Source: Crocinitomicaceae bacterium (GTDB lineage: Bacteria; Bacteroidota; Bacteroidia; Flavobacteriales_D; Crocinitomicaceae). Taken from it: a stretch of 33,982 nt of DNA. Of the stretch, positions 10,892-29,978 are shown piece after piece. The stretch is taken from assembly GCA_021738405.1 (NCBI GenBank), contig JAIPCC010000018.1, positions 1 through 33,982 on the forward strand. Direction: 5' to 3'. The notes under the pieces were generated by a model, which had not been told where the DNA came from, made no database searches, and was given only the letters and a program-made list of their open reading frames with translations. The position numbers were made by a program, and so were the translations under genes. How positions within the stretch are numbered: the first letter of the stretch is position 1; every line of letters begins with the position of its first letter.

Positions 10892-11467
10892 TCAATGCGG
10901 ATAGTACGGAGAGATCATTAAATATACAACTACACCGGTCACGGCGACATACAGCCAAATGGGAAAAGCAAATTTGGCCCATTTCTTATGTTTTTGGTAG
11001 TTGCCTTCCCACGCATGTAAATAGGTAAACAAAACAACAGGAATAACCGCAACACTCAATGAAATGTGCGAAAGCAATAAAATAATATAAGCCAACCTAG
11101 ATGACTTCACGTAATTGAGTTCTATTTCATCAAGTTGGCCATTCGCGTCTAAATCACCGTAAAGCGTAGAATCGGAGGTCATGTGGTAAGCCACATAACA
11201 AAGCAAAAATAAAACACTTAAGCCGAGCGCAACTTGGATGGTTTTTTGGTGCTGTTGTACCTTGCCATTTTTGATGAAATATAGTGCTAAAAGCAATAAT
11301 ATGGCTGTAATACCATTGATGGAGGCATAAATTGGCGGTAAAAATGAAAAGTCAACACCTTCAATTTTGATGCCGAACAAGGCAGCTACAGCAATCGGAA
11401 TCACAATGGAAACAGCGATGATCCATTTGCGCAAGCCTGTTTTATTGGGGTTTGTAGTTGTATTCAT
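10892..11467 (-). CDS. DUF420 membrane protein with an EF-hand-like loop
   Basis: A 191-residue, five-helix membrane protein of the DUF420 (YozB-like) family, usually found beside SCO and haem-copper oxidase genes. The helix with L-L-L-S-H-I-S-L-S and the final G-V-V-V-Y-L-M-I-S-P-Y-Y fit the family. I chose the ATG at 11467 (M-N-T-T-T-N-P), since an ATG at 11488 overlaps the SCO gene by 21 further bases. Between helices 3 and 4 (11120-11155) is D-L-D-A-N-G-Q-L-D-E-I-E, which meets every canonical EF-hand position (D1, D3, N5, G6, D9, E12). That is not something I associate with the family. Confidence 0.85.
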   Translation of the reverse strand: MNTTTNPNKTGLRKWIIAVSIVIPIAVAALFGIKIEGVDFSFLPPIYASINGITAILLLLALYFIKNGKVQQHQKTIQVALGLSVLFLLCYVAYHMTSDSTLYGDLDANGQLDEIELNYVKSSRLAYIILLLSHISLSVAVIPVVLFTYLHAWEGNYQKHKKWAKFAFPIWLYVAVTGVVVYLMISPYYPH

Positions 11468-16195: not shown

Positions 16196-16759
16196 CTACA
16201 AAATTACATCAAATAGTCCTTGTAGAATAGCCAAAACCAGCCAAATTAAGATAAAAACAAACCCGAATGCAATGGCGAGTGCCGCAAGGGTATCGATGAT
16301 GAGTCCGCCAATGAGTAACAAGACAATACCCACAATGATAAAAACGAGGCCTACAACGCCAAAAGAGTAACTGATCTGACCAACAATTCCTTTCTTTTCC
16401 AATTTTTGAATCTTGGAATTGGCGTTAAAAGCTGCTTTTTTAGGGGCTGCATTTTTGAGGTTGTCAGCCTTGTGTTTGCTGGCAATTGATGCAGCATGAT
16501 TTGGCAACAATTGCTTTGTGGATGGAGCAGATAATGTTTTAGGTGTTTCTGTGGCTTCAACATGCGTGGAGGCTTTTGCTACTGCTGTAATGCTTGCCGT
16601 GGGCTGGGCTTCAGTGATTTCGTTTTGTAACGCTTGGGTATGGAGCTCTTCAGAAATGCAGGTGCGGATCCGACTATGACGAAGCGCTACATCAGACGAA
16701 TGGCAAGACGCGAGCAGCATGAGTGCGACGGTAAAGCTAAACAGACTCAGGTATCTCAT
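16196..16759 (-). CDS. Ala/Lys-rich lipoprotein with C-terminal membrane helices
   Basis: A 187-residue protein of unknown function. I chose the ATG at 16759 because it begins M-R-Y-L-S-L-F-S-F and leads into a lipobox (L-M-L-L-A-S-C); the longer frame to 16888 adds 43 residues with no signal character. After the lipid-anchor Cys comes a low-complexity stretch rich in Ala, Thr and Lys, then two adjoining hydrophobic segments at the C-terminus (about 135-187, rich in Gly/Ile/Leu/Val). Many Bacteroidota genomes have small proteins of this build. It overlaps the preceding gene by 23 bp and is 2 bp before ctaB. Confidence 0.7.
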   Translation of the reverse strand: MRYLSLFSFTVALMLLASCHSSDVALRHSRIRTCISEELHTQALQNEITEAQPTASITAVAKASTHVEATETPKTLSAPSTKQLLPNHAASIASKHKADNLKNAAPKKAAFNANSKIQKLEKKGIVGQISYSFGVVGLVFIIVGIVLLLIGGLIIDTLAALAIAFGFVFILIWLVLAILQGLFDVIL

Positions 16760-17099
16760 GATAGTAATCGTTTTTGATGAAATAATCGAGGAGCCCTTCT
16801 TTGAGCAAGTGTTGTTGTTGCTGGTGGTTGAGAGCCGGCAGCTTTTGGTTGAGTGTGTAGTGTGGCCAAAGGTCTGCATCGCGGCCATCGAAGGTATAGT
16901 AGCCGTAGGGCTCTAGAAGCGTGCAGATAGCGATGTGCATGAGCTCCATTTTTTGTTGTTTGGAAAACGTTTGGTGCCCCATACCAAGTTCATTGACACC
17001 TACCAAAAAAAGAAAAGTAGACATGTCCATGCCTGGACCGAAGTCTTTTTCGAGGTGTTTTTGAAGTTTTTGAAAGCGGAGTTCGATGTCGTGATCCAT
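16737..17099 (-). CDS. conserved uncharacterised protein
   Basis: A 120-residue soluble protein. I chose the ATG at 17099 (M-D-H-D-I-E-L-R-F) because a TATTTTTG promoter box ends 4 bp before it, and the 26 extra residues of the longer frame fall over that box and the neighbouring terminator. It has F-L-F-L-V-G-V-N-E-L-G-M-G, then M-E-L-M-H-I-A-I-C-T-L-L-E-P-Y-G-Y-Y and W-P-H-Y. I recall similar proteins across Bacteroidota without a known function. It appears to be the first gene of the run through the oxidase genes to the peptidase at 8432. Confidence 0.75.
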   Translation of the reverse strand: MDHDIELRFQKLQKHLEKDFGPGMDMSTFLFLVGVNELGMGHQTFSKQQKMELMHIAICTLLEPYGYYTFDGRDADLWPHYTLNQKLPALNHQQQQHLLKEGLLDYFIKNDYYHEIPESV

Positions 17100-17185: not shown

Positions 17186-18643
17186 TTATTTTTTCACAAA
17201 TTGCTTGCTGCTGTTACCAGTAGCTGTTGCAACTTGGATAGTGTAGATACCTGCTTTGAGGTCTTCTACGCTGATTTCTTGAGTAAGACCGTTGCCAACA
17301 AATGCAGCAACTACTTTACCTGTAAGGTCAACGATACGGATTTGTTGCATCGCTTCAGTAGCTTGAACAGTCATGTTGCTGTTAACTGGGTTAGGGTAAA
17401 TAGATACAGAAGCAGTAGCTTCGTCGATACCACCTAAGCAGGCAGCACAACTTTGCCAGCATACCAAACCTACAGTAGCTGGAGCAGTTACAGTGTAAGA
17501 ACGGTTGGTGAAACCACCATTTGTTACAGTACAAGACTCACCACCTACAAATTGCTCAGATACATTCCATCCGTCTACAGTAAATTTGTATTCAATAGCA
17601 CCTAAACCAAGTGGAACTGTTACTTCCCAAACGTTGTCGCCGTTAGCGTCAGTCATTGGGGTACAAGTACCACACCAGCCATTGAAAGTACCGTTCAAGA
17701 ACACGCCAGCTGCAGTAGATCCACCACCTGTTACGTAATCATTCATGTCTACAGAGAAAGCAACATCGTTGGTACAAACGTTACAGCTTGCGAAACATAC
17801 GTTTGGCAAAGTAACGTCGCCAGCAACTACGTGGTAGCGGTTGTTGAAACCGTCATTGACTGGGTCAATACAAGTTTCAGTACCAGTGAATTCTTCTTGT
17901 GCGTTCCATCCGTCGATTGTGAATTTGTATTCAATAGCACCTGGAGCCAATGGAAGGGTGGTTTCCCACATTCCGTTGCCCATGTCTGTCATTGGGTTAC
18001 AAGTACCACACCAGCCGTTGAAAGTTCCGTTTACAAATACACCACCTGTTAAAAAACCTGTGTATTGTGACATGTCAACGCGGAATTTAACGTTGTAGTC
18101 TTGAACTGGAAGCGGAACAGTACGTTGGTAAACAAAACGCCACCATCCTGGACCGAAGTTGATATCTGCAGTCATGGTGTTACCACCGTTAGAGATAGCT
18201 ACGTTGTAAGTAATTGAACTTGCAGCGGCTCCTGGGTTAGCGATTTCAGCACCGTTGATCACTTTAGCCAAGCCAATGTGTGCACCTAAACCGTTTACGG
18301 TTAATGTACCAGCAGTAGCATCGTAAGCATAAGTTGCAGCTCCACCAACATGTGGAGCAATTGGCGCACCACAAGCATCTGGGCTGACACCTTGCCATCC
18401 TTCTAACCAAGTTGCACCATCCATGTAATGAGTCATGGTACCGTTGGCTTCAAATTTAATTGAATCGTCAAAAAGACAAGCGCGAGTGGTTAATTCACCA
18501 GCACCATTGGACCACCAGCTGATGTCCCCAAGATTGGGACCAACACCTAGAGCGCCAGCTTGTGGAGCCAGTTTCCAAGTACCCTCAACCTGAGCAGAAA
18601 GACTCAAGATTGGAGCAAAAAGTAAAAAGTACAGTTTTTTCAT
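17186..18643 (-). CDS. T9SS-exported protein with two tandem carbohydrate-binding-like repeats
   Basis: A 485-residue secreted, probably glycan-binding protein with no recognised catalytic site. Parts in order: signal peptide (1-18); a beta-rich domain (19-175) with G-V-G-P, W-W and a closing W-W-R-F-V-Y, resembling the C-terminal domain of the PKD lipoprotein at 22159-23010; repeat 1 (183-290) and repeat 2 (293-402), each with V-D-M, G-T-F-N-G-W-C-G-T-C, P-M-T-D, E-Y-K-F-T, D-G-W-N and a closing C-x-x-C; and a T9SS type A sorting domain (about 412-485, S-I-Y-P-N-P-V-N ... F-V-K-K). It lies downstream of the GH3 gene on the same strand, but has its own -7 box and a candidate operator of the Nudix-like regulator. 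It probably supports beta-glucan capture at the cell surface. Confidence 0.85.
   Translation of the reverse strand: MKKLYFLLFAPILSLSAQVEGTWKLAPQAGALGVGPNLGDISWWSNGAGELTTRACLFDDSIKFEANGTMTHYMDGATWLEGWQGVSPDACGAPIAPHVGGAATYAYDATAGTLTVNGLGAHIGLAKVINGAEIANPGAAASSITYNVAISNGGNTMTADINFGPGWWRFVYQRTVPLPVQDYNVKFRVDMSQYTGFLTGGVFVNGTFNGWCGTCNPMTDMGNGMWETTLPLAPGAIEYKFTIDGWNAQEEFTGTETCIDPVNDGFNNRYHVVAGDVTLPNVCFASCNVCTNDVAFSVDMNDYVTGGGSTAAGVFLNGTFNGWCGTCTPMTDANGDNVWEVTVPLGLGAIEYKFTVDGWNVSEQFVGGESCTVTNGGFTNRSYTVTAPATVGLVCWQSCAACLGGIDEATASVSIYPNPVNSNMTVQATEAMQQIRIVDLTGKVVAAFVGNGLTQEISVEDLKAGIYTIQVATATGNSSKQFVKK
17564..18031 (-). repeat. diverged direct repeat encoding the two binding modules
   Basis: Two units of about 130 bp, 17564-17695 and 17904-18031, are alike along their length, with exact runs near 17583 and 17925 and again over the G-W-C-G-T-C codons. 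They are the most conserved cores of the two protein repeats of about 105 residues, and indicate an in-gene duplication. Confidence 0.8.
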
Positions 18644-18679: not shown

Positions 18680-18693
18680 AAAGAACGGGTTAA

Positions 18694-18714
18694 ATATAGT
18701 AAAAAATACAATAA
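18694..18714 (-). promoter_or_regulatory. candidate operator C, degenerate copy of the 21-bp inverted repeat
   Basis: On the plus strand: ATATAGT, 7 bases, ACAATAA, followed by G. The right arm matches sites A and B perfectly, the left arm at 5 of 7 positions, with the same 7-base spacer. It lies 50 bp before the T9SS protein gene. Binding by the Nudix-like regulator is inferred. Confidence 0.45.
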
Positions 18715-18749: not shown

Positions 18750-21050
18750 TTAAAACAATAAGTCGTCAAAAAGTTCAAAAGTGAGTTTATTTGGCCCACA
18801 TAAAATTTCAAATGTTCCTTTTTCGGCACGCCATTTACCATCGGCACTGACGCGTTTGAGAGTTGTTGCATCAAAACTGAATGTCATCGTTTTGTTTTCG
18901 CCGGGTAGGATGCTCACTTTTTGAAAGGCGATGAGGCGTTTATTTTCTGGAGTGGTGCTGGCATATAAATCGCTGATGTAAACAGGAACCACCATAATAA
19001 GTGGTTTTTGGCCCTCGTTGCCGACATTGACCTCAATTGAAAAGGTTCCTTTTTGCTCGTCTTTCTTGACAAAACGCATGCTGTTGACCTTACCCGTATT
19101 ATAGGAAAGACCAAATCCGAAATCCCATTGTGGGTTGTATGCTGAAAAATCGCCAGCTTTAGAGCGGTCTACGCTGCGCGGGTGGTCGTAGAATTCAATC
19201 ACGCCATCGTAACGCGGGTAGGTATAAGGCAGGCGGCCGGAGAAGTCGGCTTTTCCGGTGACGAGTTCAGCAAGTGCTGCCCCACCTTGATCGCCAGGTA
19301 AGTAGGCTTGGATAATGGCATCGCACAAAGGCTCGATATCGTTGATGATGCGCGGACGCGCTTCCAATAGTACCAAAACGACCTTTTTCTTGGCTGCTTT
19401 TGCCAAGCGCACCAACTCTTTTTGTTTGTCGTCGAGTTGTAAGCTACGGATATCGCCTGGTTTTTCGGTAGAAGGGAGCTCGCCTACACAGATAACAACA
19501 ACGTCATTTTTCTTGAGCGCTTTTTTGTAGCTATCGAGTTCGACAAATTTGGATGCTTCAAAATCCTTTTCTAAGTAAAGTTCAACGCCTTTTTGGTATG
19601 TAATACTTGCAGTGGGTAATTGGTGCTGCAGCGCTTGAAAGATATTCAAAACACCTGTTGTGTTGTAACTGGCGTCCATTCCCTGCCAGGTGTGTGTCCA
19701 TGCACCATTGAGCATATTGATGCTTGCTGCTCCCGGCCCAGCCACTAAAATACGCTGTGTGCTTTGGAGTGGTAAGGTTTGGCTTTCATTCTTCAATAAA
19801 GTGATGGACTCAAGAGCTGCTTGCTTGGCCATGTTTTTGAATTTGGCGCTGCCAAATAAGGGGTATTGATCAAATTGAGGCAATGGATTGGTAAACAAAC
19901 CGAGTTGGTTTTTCACATAAAGAATTCTTCTGACGGCATCGTTCAGTCTGTCCATCGAAATTTTACCTTCCTTCACTGCTTTGACCATATCTTGGCAATA
20001 AGATTTGTACTGCGGATTGGAAGGAACCATGCTCATGTCTACACCCGCATTAAATGCTTGGATAGCAGCCTCAGCCAAAGATGGCGCTGTGCGGTGCACG
20101 GTATGCAGCATGATGAAGTCTTCCCAGTCAGAAACTACAAAACCTTTGAAACCCCAATCTTTTTTTAGGGTTTGGGTGAGCAGTTGGTAATTGGCGTGTC
20201 CTGGAATGCCGTTCACGACTCCAGAATTGATCATGAGCGTGAGCGCACCCTTTTCTACTGCCGCTTTGAATGCTGGCAAATACAATTCTTGCATGTATTT
20301 CTCAGGAATAAACGCAGGCGTGCGGTCGCGACCTGAGAAGCTTGCGCTATAACCCACAAAATGCTTGAGGCAAGCGGCAGCATGAAACTGATCAACGCTT
20401 TCTCCTTTTCCTTGATAGCCTTCCACGAGGGCAACACCCATTTGCGTGCCCAAAACGGGATCTTCGCCGAGTGTTTCAAAATGACGCGACCAAAGCGGTT
20501 GGCGGCCTAAGTCAAGTACAGGTGAGAAGTTCCAAGGAACACCTGATGCGCGGCATTCGTAGGCTGTTACTTCTCCCATTTGACGCGCTAGTTCGGTATT
20601 CCAAGTGGCCGCTAAGCCAATTTCTTGAGGGAAAAGCGTGCCGCCAACGGTATAGTTCACACCGTGAATGGCATCAATGCCGTAGAGAATGGGAATGTTT
20701 TGTTCTTTTTTGAGGTAGGGCGCATGCACATCAGTCATGATAGACTTCCATTCATCAAGATTCAAAGTATGCCATCCTACATTCAGCACAGAACCTACAT
20801 GGTAAACTTCTAGTGCTTCTTTGAGTTTATTGGGGTCAATTTGAGCGGGCACAAGCGCTTGTCCTTTTTCATCGGTACGGTGAATGGCGTCTAGTGTAAT
20901 CTGACAAGTTTGCCCGACTTTTTCTTCGATGCTCATCTGTGCAATAAGCGTTTCGATATCAGCAGTACTTGGCGTGGTGAAGTAAGGCTTTTCGGATTGT
21001 TTAAAGCCTAAAAGCACAGCCAACATCAATAATGAAGACAATAATTTCAT
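18750..21050 (-). CDS. glycoside hydrolase family 3, beta-glucosidase-like
   Basis: A 766-residue exported enzyme, probably releasing glucose from beta-gluco-oligosaccharides. Signal-like N-terminus (1-20, no lipobox Cys). The GH3 N-domain (about 30-380) has P-I-L-Y-G-I-D-A-I-H-G, K-H-F-V-G-Y-S and the nucleophile Asp308 in G-F-V-V-S-D-W-E-D. The alpha/beta C-domain (about 410-620) starts after A-L-E-S-I-T-L-L-K-N-E and contains a G-E-x-P-S-T-E-K-P-G-D block; a fibronectin III-like domain ends the protein. The length and order match BglX-type enzymes. It is the last gene of the susC operon, 13 bp after GH16; no hairpin terminator is visible after it. Confidence 0.93.
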   Translation of the reverse strand: MKLLSSLLMLAVLLGFKQSEKPYFTTPSTADIETLIAQMSIEEKVGQTCQITLDAIHRTDEKGQALVPAQIDPNKLKEALEVYHVGSVLNVGWHTLNLDEWKSIMTDVHAPYLKKEQNIPILYGIDAIHGVNYTVGGTLFPQEIGLAATWNTELARQMGEVTAYECRASGVPWNFSPVLDLGRQPLWSRHFETLGEDPVLGTQMGVALVEGYQGKGESVDQFHAAACLKHFVGYSASFSGRDRTPAFIPEKYMQELYLPAFKAAVEKGALTLMINSGVVNGIPGHANYQLLTQTLKKDWGFKGFVVSDWEDFIMLHTVHRTAPSLAEAAIQAFNAGVDMSMVPSNPQYKSYCQDMVKAVKEGKISMDRLNDAVRRILYVKNQLGLFTNPLPQFDQYPLFGSAKFKNMAKQAALESITLLKNESQTLPLQSTQRILVAGPGAASINMLNGAWTHTWQGMDASYNTTGVLNIFQALQHQLPTASITYQKGVELYLEKDFEASKFVELDSYKKALKKNDVVVICVGELPSTEKPGDIRSLQLDDKQKELVRLAKAAKKKVVLVLLEARPRIINDIEPLCDAIIQAYLPGDQGGAALAELVTGKADFSGRLPYTYPRYDGVIEFYDHPRSVDRSKAGDFSAYNPQWDFGFGLSYNTGKVNSMRFVKKDEQKGTFSIEVNVGNEGQKPLIMVVPVYISDLYASTTPENKRLIAFQKVSILPGENKTMTFSFDATTLKRVSADGKWRAEKGTFEILCGPNKLTFELFDDLLF

Positions 21051-21063
21051 GAGGAATATGGTT

Positions 21064-22149
21064 TTATTGGAATACGCGAACGTAGTCTACGTACATTTTT
21101 TGAGGAAAGATTGTGCTGGCGTCAGGTGAGCCAGGCCAGTTTCCGCCGACTGCAAGGTTTAAAATGATAAAGAATTTAGCTCTGAATTCATCCATTTCAG
21201 CTGGGCTCGTATTGATGACGTGGTACTCGACGTTGTCTAGGAGCCAGTGAATAGAATTGGCATCCCAAGTGATAGAGAACACGTGGAATTCATCTGCAAA
21301 TTTACCCGAGGTAAGTGACTTGCTTCCGCCGTATTGTGCATGCGTTCCGTTGTCACTCCAGTGAACAGTTCCGTGTACCGTGCGGTCATTAGCTCCGGCA
21401 CCACCGATGAGCTCCATGATGTCGATTTCTCCACATGCTGGCCAACCAGCTGAAGTAATGTTGTCTCCGAGCATCCAAATTGCTGGCCAAATGCCTTGTC
21501 CATACGGGAGTGCTGCGCGCACATCTATGCGGCCAAATTTCCAAGATTTGATACCTTGTGTTTTGATCCTGCTAGACGTATAGTTCGACGTATTGAACGT
21601 TTCATTTTTGGCGGTAATGGTGAGGATGCCATCAGAAACAACTGCGTTTTGTTGCTTGTAGTATTGCAGCTCGTTGTTGCCCCAACCCCAGCTTCCTGTA
21701 CCGATGTCGTAGGCCCAGTCAGAAGACAAACTTGTTCCATCGAATTCATCATTCCAGACAAGTGAATAATTTGGGTAAGTAAGTGGGCTTAAATAACCTG
21801 AGGTAGGCGCGCCTGTGTTGCCAGTGCTGATGTCGATCACTACGTCTTCTGTTTTTTCAATAAAAGCAGTTTGAATGGAGTGCGCGCGTGTGCGAATTTT
21901 GTAGGTACCTGCAGTACTGAAAACGTGAGTAGCTTCGCCGTCTTGTGTTTCTACGGTAATGGTGTCATCGGTATCGTAGAATGTGACCGTATAAAAATTA
22001 GCGCTGTCGGCAGTGGCTACAACATGTACTTCACCGTTGGTGATGGTGAGTTGGGTGCTGAGGTTGCTAGGTAAACCAGGAGGCTTGGGCGCGTCTGGCT
22101 CACAAGCGAGAAGCGATAAACAGATGAGAAGAAATGACATGATTTTCAT
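21064..22149 (-). CDS. GH16 endo-beta-glucanase (laminarinase-like) lipoprotein
   Basis: A 361-residue surface or periplasmic lipoprotein (lipobox L-S-L-L-A-C16). An N-terminal PKD-like beta-sandwich (about 28-108, with H-V-F-S-T-A-G-T-Y-K-I) is followed by a Gly/Thr-rich linker and the GH16 domain (about 122-361). The catalytic motif is G-E241-I-D243-I-M-E246, the beta-bulge E-x-D-x-x-E form found in laminarinases; F-G-R-I-D-V-R-A and Q-G-I-W-P-A-I-W-M-L also fit. The domain ends V-D-Y-V-R-V-F. It would cut beta-1,3 or mixed-linkage glucan at the surface into oligosaccharides for SusCD uptake. It lies 9 bp after the PKD lipoprotein gene. Confidence 0.93.
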   Translation of the reverse strand: MKIMSFLLICLSLLACEPDAPKPPGLPSNLSTQLTITNGEVHVVATADSANFYTVTFYDTDDTITVETQDGEATHVFSTAGTYKIRTRAHSIQTAFIEKTEDVVIDISTGNTGAPTSGYLSPLTYPNYSLVWNDEFDGTSLSSDWAYDIGTGSWGWGNNELQYYKQQNAVVSDGILTITAKNETFNTSNYTSSRIKTQGIKSWKFGRIDVRAALPYGQGIWPAIWMLGDNITSAGWPACGEIDIMELIGGAGANDRTVHGTVHWSDNGTHAQYGGSKSLTSGKFADEFHVFSITWDANSIHWLLDNVEYHVINTSPAEMDEFRAKFFIILNLAVGGNWPGSPDASTIFPQKMYVDYVRVFQ

Positions 22150-22158
22150 ATGAAAAGT

Positions 22159-23010
22159 TTAAAGCGTCTTGAGTTTAAGATACCATTTCAAGCCGCCTGC
22201 ATGGTGGCCGTATTGCAAATGCAAAGTAGAGTCAGTTGCAGATAAAATGCGGTAAACGCGCGGCCCTGTATAAAAGCCCATAAAGGCATTCCCTGAAATA
22301 GTAATAGTTGTTTCTGTTCCTTCTGTTAGCAACCAACTCTCATTCATTTGGTTGTCGAATGGTGCAGTGTAATCAGCTAGGTTTTGGAAAGAACCAGGGA
22401 AAGAAGCTGCAAGCGAGTTATGAATGTACACATCTCCGTTGGTGATCATGTCAAACTTGAAGGCATTGAGGTGAAAAACGTATTGGTCATTGTACAAACC
22501 ACAACCTGGTTTTTCATTGGCGCCTGCAGCCCACCACTCAGGAGTAGCACCGAGTGCACTTTCTGGGTCAGGCCCAACGCCCATATGTCCAGATGCGGCA
22601 GAATCTACCACCCATACTTTATAACCCGGGCCGCTCACACCTCCAGTAAGCAATGTGTAGTAAGGATTGTTGAGCAAACCAAAGTCGTCATTGGCGATGG
22701 TCACTTGTTGGCTAGAGCTGCGGCTACCGCCTTTGGCAAATACGGTGAGCTTGATGGTATAGGTACCAGCATATGGATACGTCGCATTGACATTGGCTCC
22801 TTGTGCTTTGGTGCCGTTGCCGAAGTCCCAAACGCATTGAATGTCGGGGTTCGCGGCGCTGAGTTCAATGATGTTGGCATTGGCCGCTGAGGGCGCCATG
22901 GTAAATTGAGCATCGGCAGTAGAAGGCGCCGGCCCAAGTGTTGGTTCGTATTTTTGGCAAGCTACTAAAGCCAAGCCAATACTTAAGATACTGAGCAATA
23001 ATGTTTTCAT
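22159..23010 (-). CDS. PKD-domain lipoprotein, SusE-position glycan-binding protein
   Basis: A 283-residue lipoprotein (lipobox A-L-V-A-C18) in the position of a surface glycan-binding protein, directly after susD. A PKD domain (about 33-107) shows C-V-W-D-F-G-N-G-T and Y-A-G-T-Y-T-I-K-L-T-V. The C-terminal domain (about 117-283) has G-P-G-Y-K-V-W-V-V-D, G-V-G-P, E-W-W and a closing G-L-K-W-Y-L-K-L-K. That layout matches the N-terminal domain of the T9SS protein at 17186-18643 (G-V-G-P, then WW, C-L-[YF]-[ND]-D, a T-[IL]-T-[IV]-x-G strand and a closing aromatic strand). A direct binding role is inferred. Confidence 0.82.
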   Translation of the reverse strand: MKTLLLSILSIGLALVACQKYEPTLGPAPSTADAQFTMAPSAANANIIELSAANPDIQCVWDFGNGTKAQGANVNATYPYAGTYTIKLTVFAKGGSRSSSQQVTIANDDFGLLNNPYYTLLTGGVSGPGYKVWVVDSAASGHMGVGPDPESALGATPEWWAAGANEKPGCGLYNDQYVFHLNAFKFDMITNGDVYIHNSLAASFPGSFQNLADYTAPFDNQMNESWLLTEGTETTITISGNAFMGFYTGPRVYRILSATDSTLHLQYGHHAGGLKWYLKLKTL

Positions 23011-23030: not shown

Positions 23031-24491
23031 TTAATAACCAGGGTTTTGTGTCCAGTTGCCACCAGCGAGGTCAATCTCTACTTGCGGAATCGGGAACAAC
23101 TCGTGTTTACCTGTAACAAATCCAGGGATATATTGTGCGGCTTGGCCGGTACGAACGAGGTCAAAAAAGCGTAGACCTTCGCCCGAAAGCTCTAAACGGC
23201 GCTCTAGATATACCTTTTCAATGCTATTCACAGAGGCACCAGGGATACCTGCGCGTTGGCGAATTTGATTCACCAATTGCGTTGCACGAGAAGGATTGCC
23301 AATTTGATAATTGGCTTCTGCCGCCATTAAAAGCACATCGGCATAGCGAATCACGCGATAGTTAACTGGGCTCGTGAGGTCGTTGTCTGGCAAACCAATT
23401 TCGCCTAGGCGCTTGATGTATTTGTTGTTGTAGTAACCTGTGTGGCCACCGGCACCAATTGCATATGTAATAGAAGCAGGATTAGGCTGAGCAGCAATAA
23501 AAGCTTCAATGTCTAGAATAGTTGCCTGACGGCGCTGATCTATTGGTGAGAATGCAGCATATAGCTCGGTAGTTGGCAAATTATAAGAGTTGCCATCGCC
23601 ATAAATTGGGCCAGCGTATTGGCGAATGCCTTGGAAGCCAACTGCAGCGTTACCTTCCAAACAAATGAGACAACCGTAGCTACCACCTTCGAGGCCGGTG
23701 TATTCAATGTCAAAAACTGTTTCAGGATTCCCTTCAGCTGCAACGCTGAAAAGCGTGCTGTAGTCTTGGTAAAGGCTGTATTGCCCAGTGGCAATGACTT
23801 CTTCTAAAATAGCTGCAGCTTCTGTGAATTTATTTTGATAGAGATACACTTTGCCAAGTAGCGATTTGGCTGCGCCTTTGGTTGCACGGCCTTTTTGCGC
23901 TGCAACTGAGTTGAGCACCGCTGCCGCCGCAATTAAATCGGCTTCGATTTGTGCATAGACTTCGGCTTTTGGCGAACGTGCAATGGTGCGCGCTTCTTCA
24001 ATACCGATTCTTTTGTCGAGGATCAATGGCACATCGCCAAAGAATTTTACGAGCTCAAAGTAATAGTAGGCGCGCAAAAATTTAGCTTCTGCAATGATGT
24101 GCGCTTTGCCAGCAAAATCGATGTTGTTTTGGTGCTCAAGAATGTAGTTTGCACGTGTAATACCGGTGTAGTTCCAACGGAAAACACTGCGCAATTCTGC
24201 ATTGACCCCACCGTGTGTCATGTTGTCGATGTCGTGAAGACCCTTGCTGTCATTGACGCTTTCTCCGCCTGCAATGGCGTTGTCAGAAGCAATTTCGCCA
24301 ATCCAAAGCCCTACAAATGAACTCTGTAAAAGGTCATAGGCACCAGTAAGTGCGCGTTCGAAATCTTCAGGAGTTTGAAAGAAGTTCTCGGCATCTTGCG
24401 CATAAGGCGGATCGACAGACAAGAATTTTTCACAAGAAGGCAAAGTAACTATCGTTACGAAGGCCAAAAGTACGTAGATGAGTTTTTTCAT
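23031..24491 (-). CDS. SusD/RagB-family outer-membrane glycan-binding lipoprotein
   Basis: A 486-residue lid protein for the SusC transporter. The lipobox is T-L-P-S-C20, followed by E-K-F-L-S-V-D-P-P, a standard SusD start. TPR-like helices include A-E-A-K-F-L-R-A-Y-Y-Y-F-E-L-V-K-F-F-G-D and A-K-S-L-L-G-K-V-Y-L-Y; later V-N-Y-R-V-I-R-Y-A-D-V-L-L-M-A-A-E-A and R-L-E-L-S-G-E-G-L-R-F-F-D-L-V-R are strong family signatures. It ends near N-P-G-Y. It lies 10 bp after susC and 20 bp before the PKD lipoprotein gene. Confidence 0.96.
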   Translation of the reverse strand: MKKLIYVLLAFVTIVTLPSCEKFLSVDPPYAQDAENFFQTPEDFERALTGAYDLLQSSFVGLWIGEIASDNAIAGGESVNDSKGLHDIDNMTHGGVNAELRSVFRWNYTGITRANYILEHQNNIDFAGKAHIIAEAKFLRAYYYFELVKFFGDVPLILDKRIGIEEARTIARSPKAEVYAQIEADLIAAAAVLNSVAAQKGRATKGAAKSLLGKVYLYQNKFTEAAAILEEVIATGQYSLYQDYSTLFSVAAEGNPETVFDIEYTGLEGGSYGCLICLEGNAAVGFQGIRQYAGPIYGDGNSYNLPTTELYAAFSPIDQRRQATILDIEAFIAAQPNPASITYAIGAGGHTGYYNNKYIKRLGEIGLPDNDLTSPVNYRVIRYADVLLMAAEANYQIGNPSRATQLVNQIRQRAGIPGASVNSIEKVYLERRLELSGEGLRFFDLVRTGQAAQYIPGFVTGKHELFPIPQVEIDLAGGNWTQNPGY

Positions 24492-24501
24492 GACTTAATA
24501 C

Positions 24502-27500
24502 TTAAAATTTGATTTGAAGGCCGCTCATTAAAGAACGCGCTTGAGGATACATTCCGTAGTCAACACCTGCAGAAAGCACGCTAGACGAGCTTAAATCTGG
24601 GTCAAAGCCCATGTAGCGGGTGAGCGTGATGAGGTTATTGGCTGCTACATACACACGCAAAGACTCTACGTGAATTTTGCGCAATAAAGTGCTCGGTAGC
24701 GTATAACCGAATTGTAGGTTGCGCAGGCGAACAAAAGAACCGTCTTCTACAAAATAATCAGAGAACAAGTTGTTGTTGGTAGGGCCCGTTGTAAGGCGTG
24801 GATGCTCGTTGGTAGATCCTGGGCCAGTCCAGCGGTCAATGACGTAAGCCAATTGGTTGGCGTAGGGTTGTTGGCGCTCGTAGTTGCGGATGATTTCTTG
24901 GCCAAGCGCAGCGTAAACATTTCCAGATAAATCGAAGCCGTGTAGCTTGAAATTAAAGGCAAAGCCCATTGTGAAGTCTGGAATCGCTGAACCGAGATTG
25001 GTTTTGTCGGAGTCATCGGAGAAGTTGATTTTGCCGTCGCCGTTTTGGTCTACAAAAATGAGGTCGCCAGGTTGTGCGCCTTCTTGTACAACCGCTGCGT
25101 TGTCGATTTCTTCTTGCGTTTGGAATACACCAGCTGTTTGGTACCCAAAGAAGTACCCAATTTCGTAGCCTTCTTGGAAGCGCGTTGCGACGTCGCCACC
25201 CACACTGAAGCTTGCGCCAGGAATGTATTGTACGCCTGCTGGCACACTTACCACTTTGTTATTGATTGTTGTAAAGTTGAAGTTAAGGCCAGTTTGGAGC
25301 AAGTTTTTGCGGTCAGACTGATAAGCGACTTCAAATTCCCAACCTTTGTTAGAGACGTCTCCGGCGTTGATGATTGGCGGGTAGCCACCTGGGCCGTAAG
25401 AGCCTAAAAGGGCAGATACATCTGGCTGGAACAATAAATCATTGGTGTTTTTGATGAAGTAGTTGGTGGTGAAGTTGAGCACTTTTAACCAAGTGAGGTC
25501 GACTCCAACGTTGAACTGACGGGTGGTTTCCCACTTGAGGTCTGGGTTGGCTGGGCGGCCAATTGCTGCACCTTGCGTAATGAGGTCGTCAAAGACATAA
25601 ACACCTTCTCCGTTGAGTAGGGCACGGTAAGCAAAGTTGGGGATTTGGTCGTTGCCAGATACACCGTAGCTCATGCGCAATTTAAGATAATCAATGCTTT
25701 TGCTTTTGAAGAAGTCTTCTTCTGAGAGCAACCAACCACCAGAAATAGTCGGGAAAATACCCCAACGGCTGTTCGGGCCAAATTTGCTGGAGCCATCGCG
25801 GCGCAAGATACCAGATATAAGGTATTTTTCTTTGTATGCGTATTCGGCACGCATGAAAGCAGATAATAAACGCTCTTTGAACTCCCAAGAGTTGACGTTA
25901 TTCAAATAACCGCCTTGCGCTGTATTGGCAGAGATATCGGCGTAGTCTAGTGAATTGTTCGGAATACCAAAGGCAATTCCATTCAAAGATTGTCCTTTGC
26001 GCTCAAAAACAGATGCACCTAGTGTTCCTTTGACTTTGTGTGTCTCGTTCCAGGTTTTCTCGTAGTTCAAGAAGGACTCATAAGTGAGGTCGAGGAAAGT
26101 AGAACGCTCTTCGTAAACAGCTGCGCCTCTCGTAATGAAAATGCTGTCTGCAATTTCTACTTCGGGAGATTCTAAATCGGCATTGATGGCTGTATTGGCG
26201 TATTTGCCTTCTCCGTACCATACGAGTGGCGAGAATACTTTGCTGTCTACGTTGGCGTAGTTGTAATTGAAGCGGTTGGTGAAAGAGAGGTTTTCATTGA
26301 TTTCATAGATGAATTCTTCTTTACCGACGAATTTGTTGGCTGTGCTCCAGTTGTATTGATTCATCATTTGGGCAATCGGATTGATGATATCGCTCACTTC
26401 TTCCATGTAAGAGAAAGTGCCTGGGCTGCTGTAAACGGGGTCATTCGGGAAGGCGTTGATAGTGTTGTACAAGACCGAACCAATGCCGTTTTCAGGTAGT
26501 GTGCTGCGCATGTCTGAGGAGAACAAAAGCACAGAGTTGAGCTTGAGTTTTTCGGACATATCGGTACTGAAATTGAGGCGGGCGTTGTAACGACCAAAAT
26601 TTGCTTTGTCGGCACCTACAATTCCTTCTTGATTGAAATAGCCAAGGCCGATAGAGTAGCGCGTGTTGAGTGTACCACCACTAAGTGAGAGGTTGTGGCT
26701 TTGAACAGGTGCAGAACTAAATACGGAATCTTGCCAGTTTGTACCGGTACCTATATTCGTATTGGAAAACGGCATGGCTTGTCCGCCAAAGGCAAAAGCT
26801 TCGTTTTTGATGACCGCGTATTCTTCTGCGGTGAGCAAATCGAGCTTGCGCGCTGTTTGTTGGATGCCATAGTAACCGTTGTATTCCATGCTTGGCTTGC
26901 GGTTAATTGCACCGTTTTTGGTTTCTACAATGATGACACCATTGGCCGCACGCACACCATAAATACCAGCTGTGGCATCTTTGAGAACGTTGATCGATTT
27001 GATATCTGAGGGGTTGAGGGCATTCAGGCCTTCGGAATCGTAGACAACACCATCGACCAAAATGAGTGGGTCGTTGTCGCCGAATGTAGATAAACCGCGG
27101 ATGCGGATGTTAGAGGAGCCGCCTGGTGAGCCGGAATTGCTAGATACCGTGACGCCTGAAACCTGTCCCTGTAGGGCTTGGTCCATGCGGGTCATGTTCA
27201 TTTTTTCGATGTCTTCTCCCTTTACTTTTGAGGTAGCACCGGTGAGTTCTTTGGTTTTGGAAGTACCGTAACCGACCACCACAACATCTTTGGTGTCTTG
27301 GACGAGTTCTTTGAGCACTGCGGTTAGGTTGGTTTTTCCTTGAACCGGCAATTCGAGCTTCTGGTAACCCATGGCGCTGAAAACAAGTACTTCGCTGTCT
27401 AGATTAGCGACTTGAATTTGAAAAAAGCCTTTGCCATCACTTAAAAGAAGCTTGTTGTTGCTTTTCAATGTGATTTTCACGTATGGGATCCCTTCGGAGC

Positions 27501-27591
27501 GTTCGTTCAAAACGGTACCGCTGACGGACTGCCCATAGACTTGCGCGACACCTATGCTACATAGTAGTGCCATGACGAGTTTTCTGATCAT
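24502..27591 (-). CDS. SusC/RagA-family TonB-dependent outer-membrane transporter
   Basis: A 1029-residue outer-membrane importer for oligosaccharides. Signal peptide (1-20), a carboxypeptidase-regulatory-like domain (about 22-95, S-V-S-G-T-V-L-N-E-R), a TonB-box region near 100-108 (D-V-V-V-V-G-Y-G), plug (about 115-235; R-I-R-G-L-S-T-F-G-D-N-D-P-L-I-L-V-D-G, then L-K-D-A-T-A-G-I-Y-G-V-R-A-A-N-G-V-I) and a 22-strand barrel to the end (F-V-R-L-R-N-L-Q-F-G-Y; final K-F). There is no N-terminal sigma/anti-sigma signalling extension, so control is probably by the Nudix-like factor instead. It is the first gene of the five-gene operon. Confidence 0.97.
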   Translation of the reverse strand: MIRKLVMALLCSIGVAQVYGQSVSGTVLNERSEGIPYVKITLKSNNKLLLSDGKGFFQIQVANLDSEVLVFSAMGYQKLELPVQGKTNLTAVLKELVQDTKDVVVVGYGTSKTKELTGATSKVKGEDIEKMNMTRMDQALQGQVSGVTVSSNSGSPGGSSNIRIRGLSTFGDNDPLILVDGVVYDSEGLNALNPSDIKSINVLKDATAGIYGVRAANGVIIVETKNGAINRKPSMEYNGYYGIQQTARKLDLLTAEEYAVIKNEAFAFGGQAMPFSNTNIGTGTNWQDSVFSSAPVQSHNLSLSGGTLNTRYSIGLGYFNQEGIVGADKANFGRYNARLNFSTDMSEKLKLNSVLLFSSDMRSTLPENGIGSVLYNTINAFPNDPVYSSPGTFSYMEEVSDIINPIAQMMNQYNWSTANKFVGKEEFIYEINENLSFTNRFNYNYANVDSKVFSPLVWYGEGKYANTAINADLESPEVEIADSIFITRGAAVYEERSTFLDLTYESFLNYEKTWNETHKVKGTLGASVFERKGQSLNGIAFGIPNNSLDYADISANTAQGGYLNNVNSWEFKERLLSAFMRAEYAYKEKYLISGILRRDGSSKFGPNSRWGIFPTISGGWLLSEEDFFKSKSIDYLKLRMSYGVSGNDQIPNFAYRALLNGEGVYVFDDLITQGAAIGRPANPDLKWETTRQFNVGVDLTWLKVLNFTTNYFIKNTNDLLFQPDVSALLGSYGPGGYPPIINAGDVSNKGWEFEVAYQSDRKNLLQTGLNFNFTTINNKVVSVPAGVQYIPGASFSVGGDVATRFQEGYEIGYFFGYQTAGVFQTQEEIDNAAVVQEGAQPGDLIFVDQNGDGKINFSDDSDKTNLGSAIPDFTMGFAFNFKLHGFDLSGNVYAALGQEIIRNYERQQPYANQLAYVIDRWTGPGSTNEHPRLTTGPTNNNLFSDYFVEDGSFVRLRNLQFGYTLPSTLLRKIHVESLRVYVAANNLITLTRYMGFDPDLSSSSVLSAGVDYGMYPQARSLMSGLQIKF

Positions 27592-27636: not shown

Positions 27637-27657
27637 TTATTGTACAATTAACAATAA
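27637..27657 (-). promoter_or_regulatory. candidate operator A, perfect 21-bp inverted repeat
   Basis: Arms TTATTGT (27637-27643) and ACAATAA (27651-27657) are perfect reverse complements separated by 7 bases, followed by G. It lies 45 bp before susC and abuts its -7 box. It has the same arms and spacer as site B. Confidence 0.7.
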
Positions 27658-27669
27658 GTTTTGTTAAGT

Positions 27670-27684
27670 CCCTGAAAAACAGGG
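27670..27684 (-). other. small hairpin upstream of the susC promoter
   Basis: CCCTG, a five-base A loop, then CAGGG: a 5-bp perfect hairpin. It lies between sites A and B. On the minus strand the loop is T-rich, but no T-run follows, so I do not call it a terminator. Confidence 0.4.
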
Positions 27685-27697
27685 CTATATAAAATAA

Positions 27698-27723
27698 GAA
27701 ACGGAGACACTCCTCTCCGTTTC
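27698..27723 (-). terminator. probable terminator between the regulator gene and susC
   Basis: A perfect 9-bp stem, GAAACGGAG (27698-27706) with CTCCGTTTC (27715-27723), and an 8-base loop. On the minus strand it is followed by CTTATTTTAT, a weak T-rich tail. It probably ends the permease-regulator transcript before the susC promoter. Confidence 0.6.
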
Positions 27724-27785
27724 CTTGATTATTAACCTGTTTAACGCCCTTCAATGAGTGAAAGCGATAACCGAAGATACAAACA

Positions 27786-27806
27786 TTATTGTAAAATATA
27801 CAATAA
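27786..27806 (-). promoter_or_regulatory. candidate operator B, perfect 21-bp inverted repeat
   Basis: Arms TTATTGT (27786-27792) and ACAATAA (27800-27806), perfect reverse complements, 7-base spacer, followed by G exactly as at site A. It lies 11 bp past the regulator stop and 149 bp from site A, close to 14 helical turns, so a looped complex with site A is conceivable. Confidence 0.65.
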
Positions 27807-27817
27807 GTGAAATAATT

Positions 27818-28519
27818 TTACATTTTGAAGCTATACTCGTTCGCTAGCAAACGTTGTTGGTAGGTGTCGCGGTCAAAAGTGAAGAGTTTGGCTGGTCGGT
27901 GTTTGACGTTTTTTTGTTTTTCGTTGAGCGCAATAAGAGGGATGTTCTTGATTTTTTTTCTGAAATTGGCTTTGTCCATTTCTTGCTCGAAAGCAAATTC
28001 ATAGAGCTGTTGAAACTCATTGAGCGTAAAGCGCTCTGGCAATAAATCAAAGCATACGGGCTCTGTTTGCAGTTTTTGCTTGAGCATTTCGTAGGTGCTT
28101 TCTAAGATGTGGTTGTGGTCAAAAGCTAAGGCCGGCACTTCATTGAGCGGTACCCAACTGATGTCATCGGCCCAAGAAGAAGCTTTCACCTGAAAATCTT
28201 CGATGCGCACAAGGGCAAAATGGGCAATGGTAATAACGCGTCCTTGCGGGTGTCTTTTGGGATGGCCAAAAGATTGCGATTGGTGCATTTGGATGTGATC
28301 GAGACCCGTGAGTTCTTTTAAAATGCGTTCTGCAGCAACTGGCAAATCTTCGTCGGGGTAGACTAAATCGCCGGGAATAGCCCAAAAGTTTTCGTAGGGC
28401 TCCATGGCACGCTTGATAAGTAGCGCCTTGATTTGCCCTGCTTCATAGCCAAAAATAATGCAGTCTACAGAAAAGGCTGCAGTAAAAAAGTCGTGAAATT
28501 CTATTTTGTACATTCCCAT
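27818..28519 (-). CDS. NrtR/AraR-like transcription factor with a degenerate Nudix domain
   Basis: A 233-residue protein with an N-terminal Nudix fold (about 10-145) and a C-terminal winged helix (about 155-225; E-R-F-T-L-N-E-F-Q-Q-L-Y-E-F and K-A-N-F-R-K-K-I), the architecture of NrtR-family regulators, some of which (AraR) sense sugars in Bacteroidota. The Nudix box G50-D-L-V-Y-P-D-E-D-L-P-V-A-A-E-R-I-L-K-E-L-T-G lacks the catalytic pairs: the canonical R-E reads R-I and E-E reads E-L. Hydrolysis is therefore unlikely and the domain probably binds an effector such as a sugar or sugar phosphate. Its start codon shares the A of the permease stop (TAATG). It most likely binds the 21-bp inverted repeats around the locus. 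Confidence 0.9.
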   Translation of the reverse strand: MGMYKIEFHDFFTAAFSVDCIIFGYEAGQIKALLIKRAMEPYENFWAIPGDLVYPDEDLPVAAERILKELTGLDHIQMHQSQSFGHPKRHPQGRVITIAHFALVRIEDFQVKASSWADDISWVPLNEVPALAFDHNHILESTYEMLKQKLQTEPVCFDLLPERFTLNEFQQLYEFAFEQEMDKANFRKKIKNIPLIALNEKQKNVKHRPAKLFTFDRDTYQQRLLANEYSFKM

Positions 28520-29943
28520 TAGTGTCCGCTTTTTGCGGTTTCAAAGGTATCAATTCCTTTGCTTTTGAGGATACTTGAGCTGCGAATTGCAAAATAAATG
28601 AGGTATGCAAAGCACACAACACCAACCCAATACGATTGTTGGATACCCAATAAGTTGTCGGCAGCTAAGGTTCCTTGGGCCAAAGTGATGAAGCCACCAC
28701 CCATGATCATCAAGATCAGTAAACTAGAGGCCGTGTTGGTGCGCTTGCCCATTCCTGCAATACCCAAGGTAAAGATACAAGGCCACAGCGTACTACAAAA
28801 TAAGCCCACAGAAATGAAGGCAAATACACTGACATACCCCGAACTGAAAATACCGATGATGAGGGCCAAAGAGCCAAGTGTAGAATAAAGGATGATTTGA
28901 CGCACAGGGTTACCGTTGGAAATGAAATCGGCTGCTATCAGCACAAAAACCAATCCAATGTAACGCCAGTAGGAGGAGACATCAGAACCGCCAATTGTGT
29001 TCGCTAGAGCAAATATGCCAAAGGCTACTACAGGTAAGAAAATACCCATCAAGCGATTGAATACTTTTGATTTTTCGAAAACACCTGCAGCTGAGGCCCA
29101 ACGGCCGATCATCATGCTGGCCCAGAACAAAGACACAAAAGGAGCGACTTCACTTTCTTTTTTACCGAGGTTTTGTTTCATGAATTCGGGCAAGTTACTT
29201 GCCGTAGCGACTTCAACACCGACATAAACAAATATGGCGATCATGGCCAAAAGTACTTGCGGTTCGCGCAACGTACTGAGTACTTGGCCCGGCTCATTTT
29301 GGTTGTCTTCGCCGATGTGATCAGGCAGGTTAGAAAACTTGAAAAATAGTGCCGCTAAGACAAACACAATGCCCAATACCAAATAAGGTGTTTGGACAGA
29401 AGCGAGGTCGAGGGTGGTTTCTCCGCTAGAAGCGTTTCCGAAAATGGCATAAGACACAATAACTGGCCCAATTGTGGTGCCGAGGTTATTGATGCCTCCG
29501 GCCATACTCAAGCGCACATTGCCTTTGGCGGGGTCGCCCATTTGTATCGCGAGTGGGTTAGCCGCCATTTGCTGAAACGAGAAACCTAAACCAACAATAA
29601 ATAAGCCGCCCAACAACATCGCAAATGACCCTCCATTTGTGGAGGCAGGGATAAACAATAAAGTTCCGAGCGCAGACACCAAAAGGCCCAAAGCCAAGCC
29701 ATTGCGGTATCCGATTTTATTGAATAAGTCTCTTTTGAGTAGAGACGAAGTGGCAAAGTAAATCAGTGAGCCCACTGTATAGGCTACATAAAAGGTATTT
29801 TGAATCCAGAGCACCTCGCTTTGTTTGAGGTCAAGTGCTTTTTTGAAAACAGGAATGAGGATGTCGTTACTTGCGGCTACAAAGCCCCAAAAGAAAAAGA
29901 TGACAATCAGCGTCCCGAAGGCGCTGTAGTTTGTTTTTTGCAT
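28519..29943 (-). CDS. FHS-type sugar:proton symporter (major facilitator superfamily)
   Basis: A 474-residue inner-membrane permease with 12 helices, related to the fucose/glucose-galactose (FucP/GluP/NagP) branch. Family features are I-F-F-F-W-G-F-V-A-A-S-N-D-I-L-I-P in helix 1, Y-R-N-G-L-A-L-G-L-L-V between helices, Q-Q-M-A-A-N-P-L-A and A-G-G-I-N-N-L-G-T-T-I-G-P in the middle, and L-F-C-S-T-L-W-P-C-I-F-T in the second half. In this locus glucose released by the GH3 enzyme is the likely substrate, which is inference. It is coupled to the regulator by TAATG, and a degenerate operator (site D) lies 14 bp before its start. Confidence 0.92.
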   Translation of the reverse strand: MQKTNYSAFGTLIVIFFFWGFVAASNDILIPVFKKALDLKQSEVLWIQNTFYVAYTVGSLIYFATSSLLKRDLFNKIGYRNGLALGLLVSALGTLLFIPASTNGGSFAMLLGGLFIVGLGFSFQQMAANPLAIQMGDPAKGNVRLSMAGGINNLGTTIGPVIVSYAIFGNASSGETTLDLASVQTPYLVLGIVFVLAALFFKFSNLPDHIGEDNQNEPGQVLSTLREPQVLLAMIAIFVYVGVEVATASNLPEFMKQNLGKKESEVAPFVSLFWASMMIGRWASAAGVFEKSKVFNRLMGIFLPVVAFGIFALANTIGGSDVSSYWRYIGLVFVLIAADFISNGNPVRQIILYSTLGSLALIIGIFSSGYVSVFAFISVGLFCSTLWPCIFTLGIAGMGKRTNTASSLLILMIMGGGFITLAQGTLAADNLLGIQQSYWVGVVCFAYLIYFAIRSSSILKSKGIDTFETAKSGH

Positions 29944-29957
29944 AGCAGTCGTTTAAG

Positions 29958-29978
29958 TTTTGGTCCAAATTACAATAA
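29958..29978 (-). promoter_or_regulatory. candidate operator D, degenerate copy of the 21-bp inverted repeat
   Basis: On the plus strand: TTTTGGT, 7 bases, ACAATAA. The right arm is perfect and the left arm matches 5 of 7. It overlaps a separate perfect inverted repeat, CCAAATTA-CAA-TAATTTGG (29965-29983), in the 42-bp gap between dxs and the permease gene. Which of the two is functional is unclear. Confidence 0.4.

Follow-up and report, generated by a model that had tools for sequence, protein, structure and literature searches.

A β-glucan-type polysaccharide-use locus of a Crocinitomicaceae bacterium is very probably controlled by a sugar-released repressor: the palindromes TTATTGT-N7-ACAATAA within it are predicted to be operators of a Nudix/winged-helix regulator encoded at 27818-28519 (coordinates refer to the window, the whole 33,982-nucleotide stretch of DNA analyzed). 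The sites, their conservation, their co-occurrence with the regulator, the protein family, the predicted fold and the AraR-like sugar-contact residues behind this reading are all direct results of computation. Such a regulon would provide a concrete control circuit for β-glucan use, including an unlinked target, in Flavobacteriales that this analysis knows only as metagenome-assembled genomes. It would also enlarge the set of Nudix regulators linked to sugars, which in Bacteroides have been described for arabinose and xylose. In addition, the genome encodes two paralogues with consensus half-sites one base apart, a natural experiment on how operators are told apart.

All genes of the locus lie on the minus strand. 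An MFS sugar permease (28519-29943), whose best NCBIfam matches, GluP (glucose/galactose) and NagP, both score below cut-off, is paired with the 233-residue regulator, which was identified by domain and structure matches. Domain matches likewise identify a SusC-type TonB-dependent outer-membrane importer (24502-27591), a SusD-type lipoprotein (23031-24491) and a T9SS-secreted protein with CBM48-like domains (17186-18643). Between the last two are a PKD-domain protein, probably a surface glycan-binding lipoprotein (22159-23010), a GH16-family glycoside hydrolase that is a probable β-glucanase (21064-22149) and a β-glucosidase-like GH3-family glycoside hydrolase (18750-21050; NCBIfam equivalogs below cut-off). 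The GH16 and GH3 content suggests that the substrate is a β-glucan. A 230-residue ORF at 16196-16888, also on the minus strand, has no Pfam or NCBIfam match at default threshold, and a lax Pfam scan gave only sub-cut-off matches. Among the best 80 of 218 relatives, most are metagenome-assembled genomes labelled Crocinitomicaceae, Cryomorphaceae or Flavobacteriales, with some other taxa, and some come from ponds or lakes.

A sequence-only reading of the window had placed two perfect palindromes at 27637-27657 (operator A) and 27786-27806 (operator B), and both are found there. No other perfect copy exists in the 2,163,115-base genome, where 0.018 would be expected from the base composition of the window, which puts the pair far beyond chance. 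Operator A, on the minus strand like the other three sites, lies 45 nt upstream of susC; reading along the susC strand, a conserved -7-like box, TATATTTA, comes next. Operator B lies 11 nt past the regulator stop codon, upstream of a terminator and 194 nt upstream of susC. The G reported to follow each copy is present at both perfect sites on the plus strand, but as a general rule it dissolves into a mild bias: on the gene strand, the corresponding base is C in 46%, A in 28% and G in 25% of 103 distinct related sites.

Two degenerate copies, at 18694 and 29958, are also present as described, with two mismatches each. Operator C (18692-18714, the two-mismatch copy starting at 18694) reads TTATTGT-N7-ACTATATTT, its right half fused with a -7-like box, and is separated by 50 nt from the CBM48/T9SS gene downstream. 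Operator D (29958-29978), a half-degenerate palindrome that reads TTATTGTAATTTGGACCAAAA on the gene strand, precedes the permease-regulator pair by 14 nt. Within the window, seven matches at up to three mismatches were observed against 2.43 expected from shuffles, and at least seven occurred in 2 of 100 shuffles, which leaves the degenerate copies short of significance when taken by themselves; the three-mismatch copies at 11279, 28633 and 32122 are all inside genes. We accept operators C and D because they are conserved across related loci. The operator C form TTATTGT-N7-ACTATAT, whose right arm runs into a TATATT box, is kept in 14 of 15 same-genus loci, window included (the exception is L311). 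The longer pattern TTATTGT-N6-TACTATATTT occurs in 29 of 61 genus genomes, compared to 0 of 61 for the reversed pattern, and in other genera the interval between the CBM48 gene and the regulator holds perfect operators. Across 19 loci, operator D is perfect in seven, has one mismatch in three and has the window's two mismatches in five, which form the window's clade; it is missing at the permease in the other four (L064, L066, L068 and L074). A second exact copy of the fused operator C lies upstream of a 112-residue ORF on another contig (C11:21349-21371; L084), which we rejected as a regulon member since the other genus genomes that bear the pattern have one copy each.

Conservation in orthologous loci had been proposed as a check, and the palindrome passes it strongly. 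An orthologue of the regulator (a match of at least 58% identity, plus one fragmentary gene in G076) is present in 76 of 200 family genomes, and we drew 46 orthologous loci from 46 of these. They contain 77 sites at up to one mismatch and none of the reversed pattern. Despite a coding fraction of 95% in these loci, 71 of the sites are intergenic and upstream of a gene, none lies between convergent genes, and only six fall in predicted ORFs, five of them within about 85 nt of the ORF start and one in a 73-codon ORF. At least one site is found in 40 of the 46 loci, leaving six without. Counting both genes where they diverge, those behind the sites encode SusC (23), GH3 (16), MFS (13), CBM48 (8), GH16 (1) and other proteins (30).

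The genome-wide scan, proposed alongside, gave a divided answer. Perfect sites are confined to the locus, but 23 of 35 hits outside the window at up to two mismatches lie inside predicted genes (longest-ORF calls, as in all scans), versus 13 of 15 for the reversed control; at one mismatch there are six outside hits, four of them inside predicted genes. Given this gene-internal background among loose matches, a simple matrix scan alone would not have yielded the regulon. The sister genomes G182 and G169 have third perfect sites; these are inside a predicted gene and resemble chance matches.

For one of the four gene-internal one-mismatch hits, the likely start codon and the conservation together show an operator placed upstream of its gene. 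It falls within a longest-ORF call on contig 50, about 41 nt upstream of a gene for a T9SS-secreted protein (G000:C50:122709-124034; L079, L347) when that gene is begun at its likely start codon. The gene was found in 23 of 41 genus genomes searched, and the operator precedes it in all 23 loci, at up to one mismatch in 15, two in five and three in three, each time with a TACWTTTA box inside the operator. Pfam recognizes only the sorting domain of the protein, and its structural model is of low confidence (pTM 0.44). The best PDB matches of the model include a surface glycan-binding protein and CBM folds; because their TM scores are low and they stand among unrelated β-rich proteins, we call the protein only possibly carbohydrate-binding.

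The distribution of the palindrome across genomes follows that of the regulator. Perfect sites occur in 56 of the 76 genomes with an orthologue and in 12 of the 124 without (Fisher 6e-21, shared ancestry ignored), and the reversed pattern shows the opposite trend (2/76 and 16/124). A perfect site is absent from 20 of the 76 regulator-bearing genomes. Six of the 12 genomes with a perfect site and no regulator are less than 90% complete, and in one genome, G184, the permease and a perfect site are kept and the regulator was not detected. The genome also encodes a paralogous Nudix regulator (L095; G000:C47:6308-7063) that is 45% identical, has the same domains and is neighbored by GH65, α-amylase, MFS-transporter and BadF-type ATPase-like genes. 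A different palindrome, TTAGTGT-N7-ACACTAA, is found in 25 of 70 genomes with this paralogue and one of 130 without it. Among genomes with only one of the two proteins, TTGT-type sites occur in 18 of 25 with the regulator and 4 of 19 with the paralogue, compared to 1 of 25 and 10 of 19 for GTGT-type sites; these counts, too, ignore shared ancestry. The motifs of the regulator and the paralogue are doubly dissociated. Co-occurrence with the regulator and not the paralogue supports the earlier prediction that the adjacent Nudix protein is the likely binder. The TTATTGT-N7-ACAATAA palindrome also adjoins three order-level homologues (L292, L293 and L294).

The predicted binder had been labelled Nudix-like. 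A Nudix domain is indeed present, but the label is too vague for a protein of the AraR/NrtR-type Nudix-winged-helix class. Pfam matches to NUDIX (45.6 bits), NrtR_WHD (69.7) and AraR_C (40.9) are all above cut-off, and the N-terminal Nudix domain and C-terminal NrtR winged helix give the domain layout of an NrtR-type regulator; the other mark of that class, a palindromic operator upstream of target operons, is likewise indicated here by sequence. The Nudix catalytic signature, compared by eye over residues 50-73 with a one-residue shift to the form quoted in PMC4666351, is impaired, with Ile66 and Leu70 in place of two REUXEE glutamates. Against NF050029, the NCBIfam equivalog model for ADP-ribose-responsive NtrR, the protein scores 144.9 bits, below the required 400. 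Its nearest solved structure is AraR of Bacteroides thetaiotaomicron (5bs6, E 2.7e-48, 38% identity), and its AlphaFold2 model (mean pLDDT 86) matches AraR with a TM score of 0.81.

AraR (BT0354), a member of the NrtR family, resembles the regulator in its Nudix-like domain and winged helix, in a 21-bp semipalindromic operator with TGT-N7-ACA core spacing, and in the control of glycan-use genes including SusC/D, as described in PMC4666351. According to the same text, the operator has GTGT half-sites, Lys179 contacts the first G and Arg180 intercalates, the DNA contacts Lys179, Arg180, Asn181, Lys184, Lys204 and Arg205 are absolutely conserved among the arabinose repressors of Bacteroides and Prevotella, and arabinose is a negative effector, the sugar-bound protein losing DNA binding. 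We mapped these residues assuming a three-residue offset between chain and paper numbering, which is consistent at His131 and Arg180. The AraR sugar contacts Arg34, Arg86 and His131 correspond to Arg37, Arg89 and His135 here and are invariant in 16 orthologues; in the alignment, Gly48 and Phe49 of the AraR pocket are replaced by Asp and Leu. Lys179, Asn181, Lys184 and Arg205 are kept in the orthologues, whereas the intercalating Arg180 has become Ala and Lys204 has become His in 16 of 16 aligned, and the half-site is TTGT rather than GTGT. The gene content differs as well: AraR controls arabinan genes (PMC4666351), whereas the locus here combines β-glucan-type SusC/D with PKD, GH16, GH3 and MFS genes, and no arabinose-use genes were found among its annotated genes.

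Two further relatives place the regulator within the family. XylR (BT0791) of Bacteroides shares the NrtR family and a general role in sugar use and is described as a predicted xylose regulator in PMC3878776 and PMC4666351. The NrtR of NAD metabolism in Shewanella (3gz5, 3gz6) has the same fold (TM 0.70-0.71; 28-30% identity), but it pairs an ADP-ribose effector with NAD genes, whereas the regulator pairs AraR-like sugar-pocket residues with a glycan locus. The conservation of these sugar contacts favors a sugar over ADP-ribose as the signal, and gene content points to glucose or a gluco-oligosaccharide. Our search of the open literature, as far as its text was accessible, turned up no description of β-glucan use being regulated by a Nudix-type protein.

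The position of the sites relative to promoters bears on what binding would do. The -7 consensus TAnnTTTG, reported from Bacteroides fragilis, has been confirmed for Flavobacterium johnsoniae (PMC7366714 and PMC2483708). Toward the gene, 39 of 114 distinct oriented sites have a TANNTTTR box 2-24 nt away, compared to a mean of 10.3 and a maximum of 21 in shuffles; on the other side the count is 8 of 83 (Fisher 4e-5). In operator C and the contig 50 operators, the box overlaps the operator itself. This overlap with core promoters, together with the behavior of AraR, suggests a sugar-released repressor; because the gene-side box is found at a minority of sites, we do not extend occlusion to every one. 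We infer physical binding, repression rather than activation, and a sugar signal in the following scheme. Each of the two TGT/ACA half-sites would receive one recognition helix of a regulator dimer, in the manner of AraR on GTGT-N7-ACAC, and the bound dimer would block transcription at sites overlapping core promoter elements. Repression would cover the operons of the SusC/D importer and of the permease-regulator pair, the gene for the CBM48/T9SS protein and, away from the locus, at least one gene for a secreted protein. A sugar from β-glucan breakdown, either glucose or a short β-gluco-oligosaccharide, would then occupy the Nudix pocket, release the protein from DNA and turn the β-glucan genes on.

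The same sites could instead serve the regulator as an activator or dual regulator, a reading we consider unlikely. Site B, 194 nt upstream of susC, and the -7-like box just downstream of site A would both fit an upstream activator, but elsewhere the box is inside the operator or fused with its right half, which favors occlusion, and AraR drops its DNA upon sugar binding (PMC4666351). It is distinctly unlikely that the palindromes are operators of another regulator, either the contig 47 paralogue or a global one, with the adjacent Nudix gene a bystander. The 12 genomes of 124 that have perfect sites and no regulator, and the operators that precede genes distant from it, would fit that reading; however, the paralogue tracks TTAGTGT-N7-ACACTAA in a double dissociation, the half-site spacing and TGT/ACA core equal those of the AraR operator as given in PMC4666351, and order-level homologues stand beside the same palindrome.

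Promoter or terminator elements, or AT-rich palindromes arisen by chance, could account for the repeats with no protein partner at all. The intergenic DNA is AT-rich, and the degenerate copies, judged within the window only, are close to what chance gives. Against this are the 77 sites compared to none of the reversed pattern, arms that are conserved beside variable surrounding sequence, conservation at an unlinked gene, and the absence of the palindromes from the terminator scan output, all of which make such an origin extremely improbable. An Rfam search of the window found no family at the gathering threshold.

All four sites had been described as lying just upstream of locus genes, but site B probably does not serve susC directly. 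On the gene strand, the regulator stop codon is followed by site B, a -7-like box, a stretch of conserved blocks, an intrinsic terminator, site A, its -7-like box and susC. The conserved blocks after operator B (27690-27785, minus strand) end in an intrinsic-terminator-like hairpin with a 12-pair stem (27696-27725, minus strand) before operator A is reached. This whole order, from the regulator stop codon to susC, is found in 14 of 22 regulator-susC intergenic regions compared, representing two subclades of the genus; the other eight have one site. Because it is upstream of the terminator, site B probably controls a separate transcript that is short and terminated and may be a small RNA or an attenuated leader.

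The two paralogues differ in the recognition helix, which reads (D/N)KANFRKK in 47 regulator orthologues, DKRNFRKR in AraR and DKRNFRRK in 32 paralogues. The contig 47 paralogue thus keeps the Arg180 equivalent and tracks TTAGTGT-N7-ACACTAA, whereas the regulator has Ala and TTATTGT-N7-ACAATAA. We surveyed 141 protein entries, some genes appearing twice and proteins with a helix off the search pattern being skipped, and classed them by their residues at positions 179 and 180. Sites were found near 42 of 53 Lys-Ala, 4 of 11 Lys-Gly, 3 of 3 Thr-Arg and 9 of 53 Lys-Arg proteins, many Lys-Arg loci having only 1.5-kb flanks. Counted over distinct sites, T occupies position 4 of the half-site in 115 of 116 cases for Lys-Ala, in all 12 for Lys-Gly and in 7 of 8 for Thr-Arg proteins, and the 26 half-sites of Lys-Arg proteins have G (17), T (6) or A (3) there (pooled Fisher for position 4 versus helix type, 3e-18). 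On the tree, Lys-Ala and Lys-Gly proteins group together and Thr-Arg proteins lie elsewhere, so few independent changes underlie the code. The neighborhood survey gave one weak shared site for homologues that have Ser or Pro at 180 and none where residue 179 is Arg or Ile.

One recognition-helix residue is the leading candidate for the cause of the half-site difference. The rule that Arg180 to Ala alone converts GTGT to TTGT is too narrow: TTGT palindromes also occur beside homologues that keep Arg180 but have Thr in place of Lys179. As a tentative proposal that we lean slightly against, a minimal code may separate the paralogues' regulons in one cell, with GTGT half-sites going with proteins that keep both Lys179 and Arg180 and TTGT with those that have lost either (Arg180 to Ala or Gly, or Lys179 to Thr). 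In addition, a short RNA that ends at the terminator may be driven from operator B, in the interval before susC.

The only perfect TTAGTGT-N7-ACACTAA of the genome (G000:C31:5939-5959; L092) is between the divergent starts of genes for an SprB-repeat protein and a glutamate dehydrogenase, a position hinting at a link between the paralogue and nitrogen metabolism. In another locus (L134:3082-3141), a GTGT-type and a TTGT-type palindrome are adjacent, after a T9SS gene with an α-amylase domain and upstream of the next gene (333 aa), which is a possible joint target of both paralogues.
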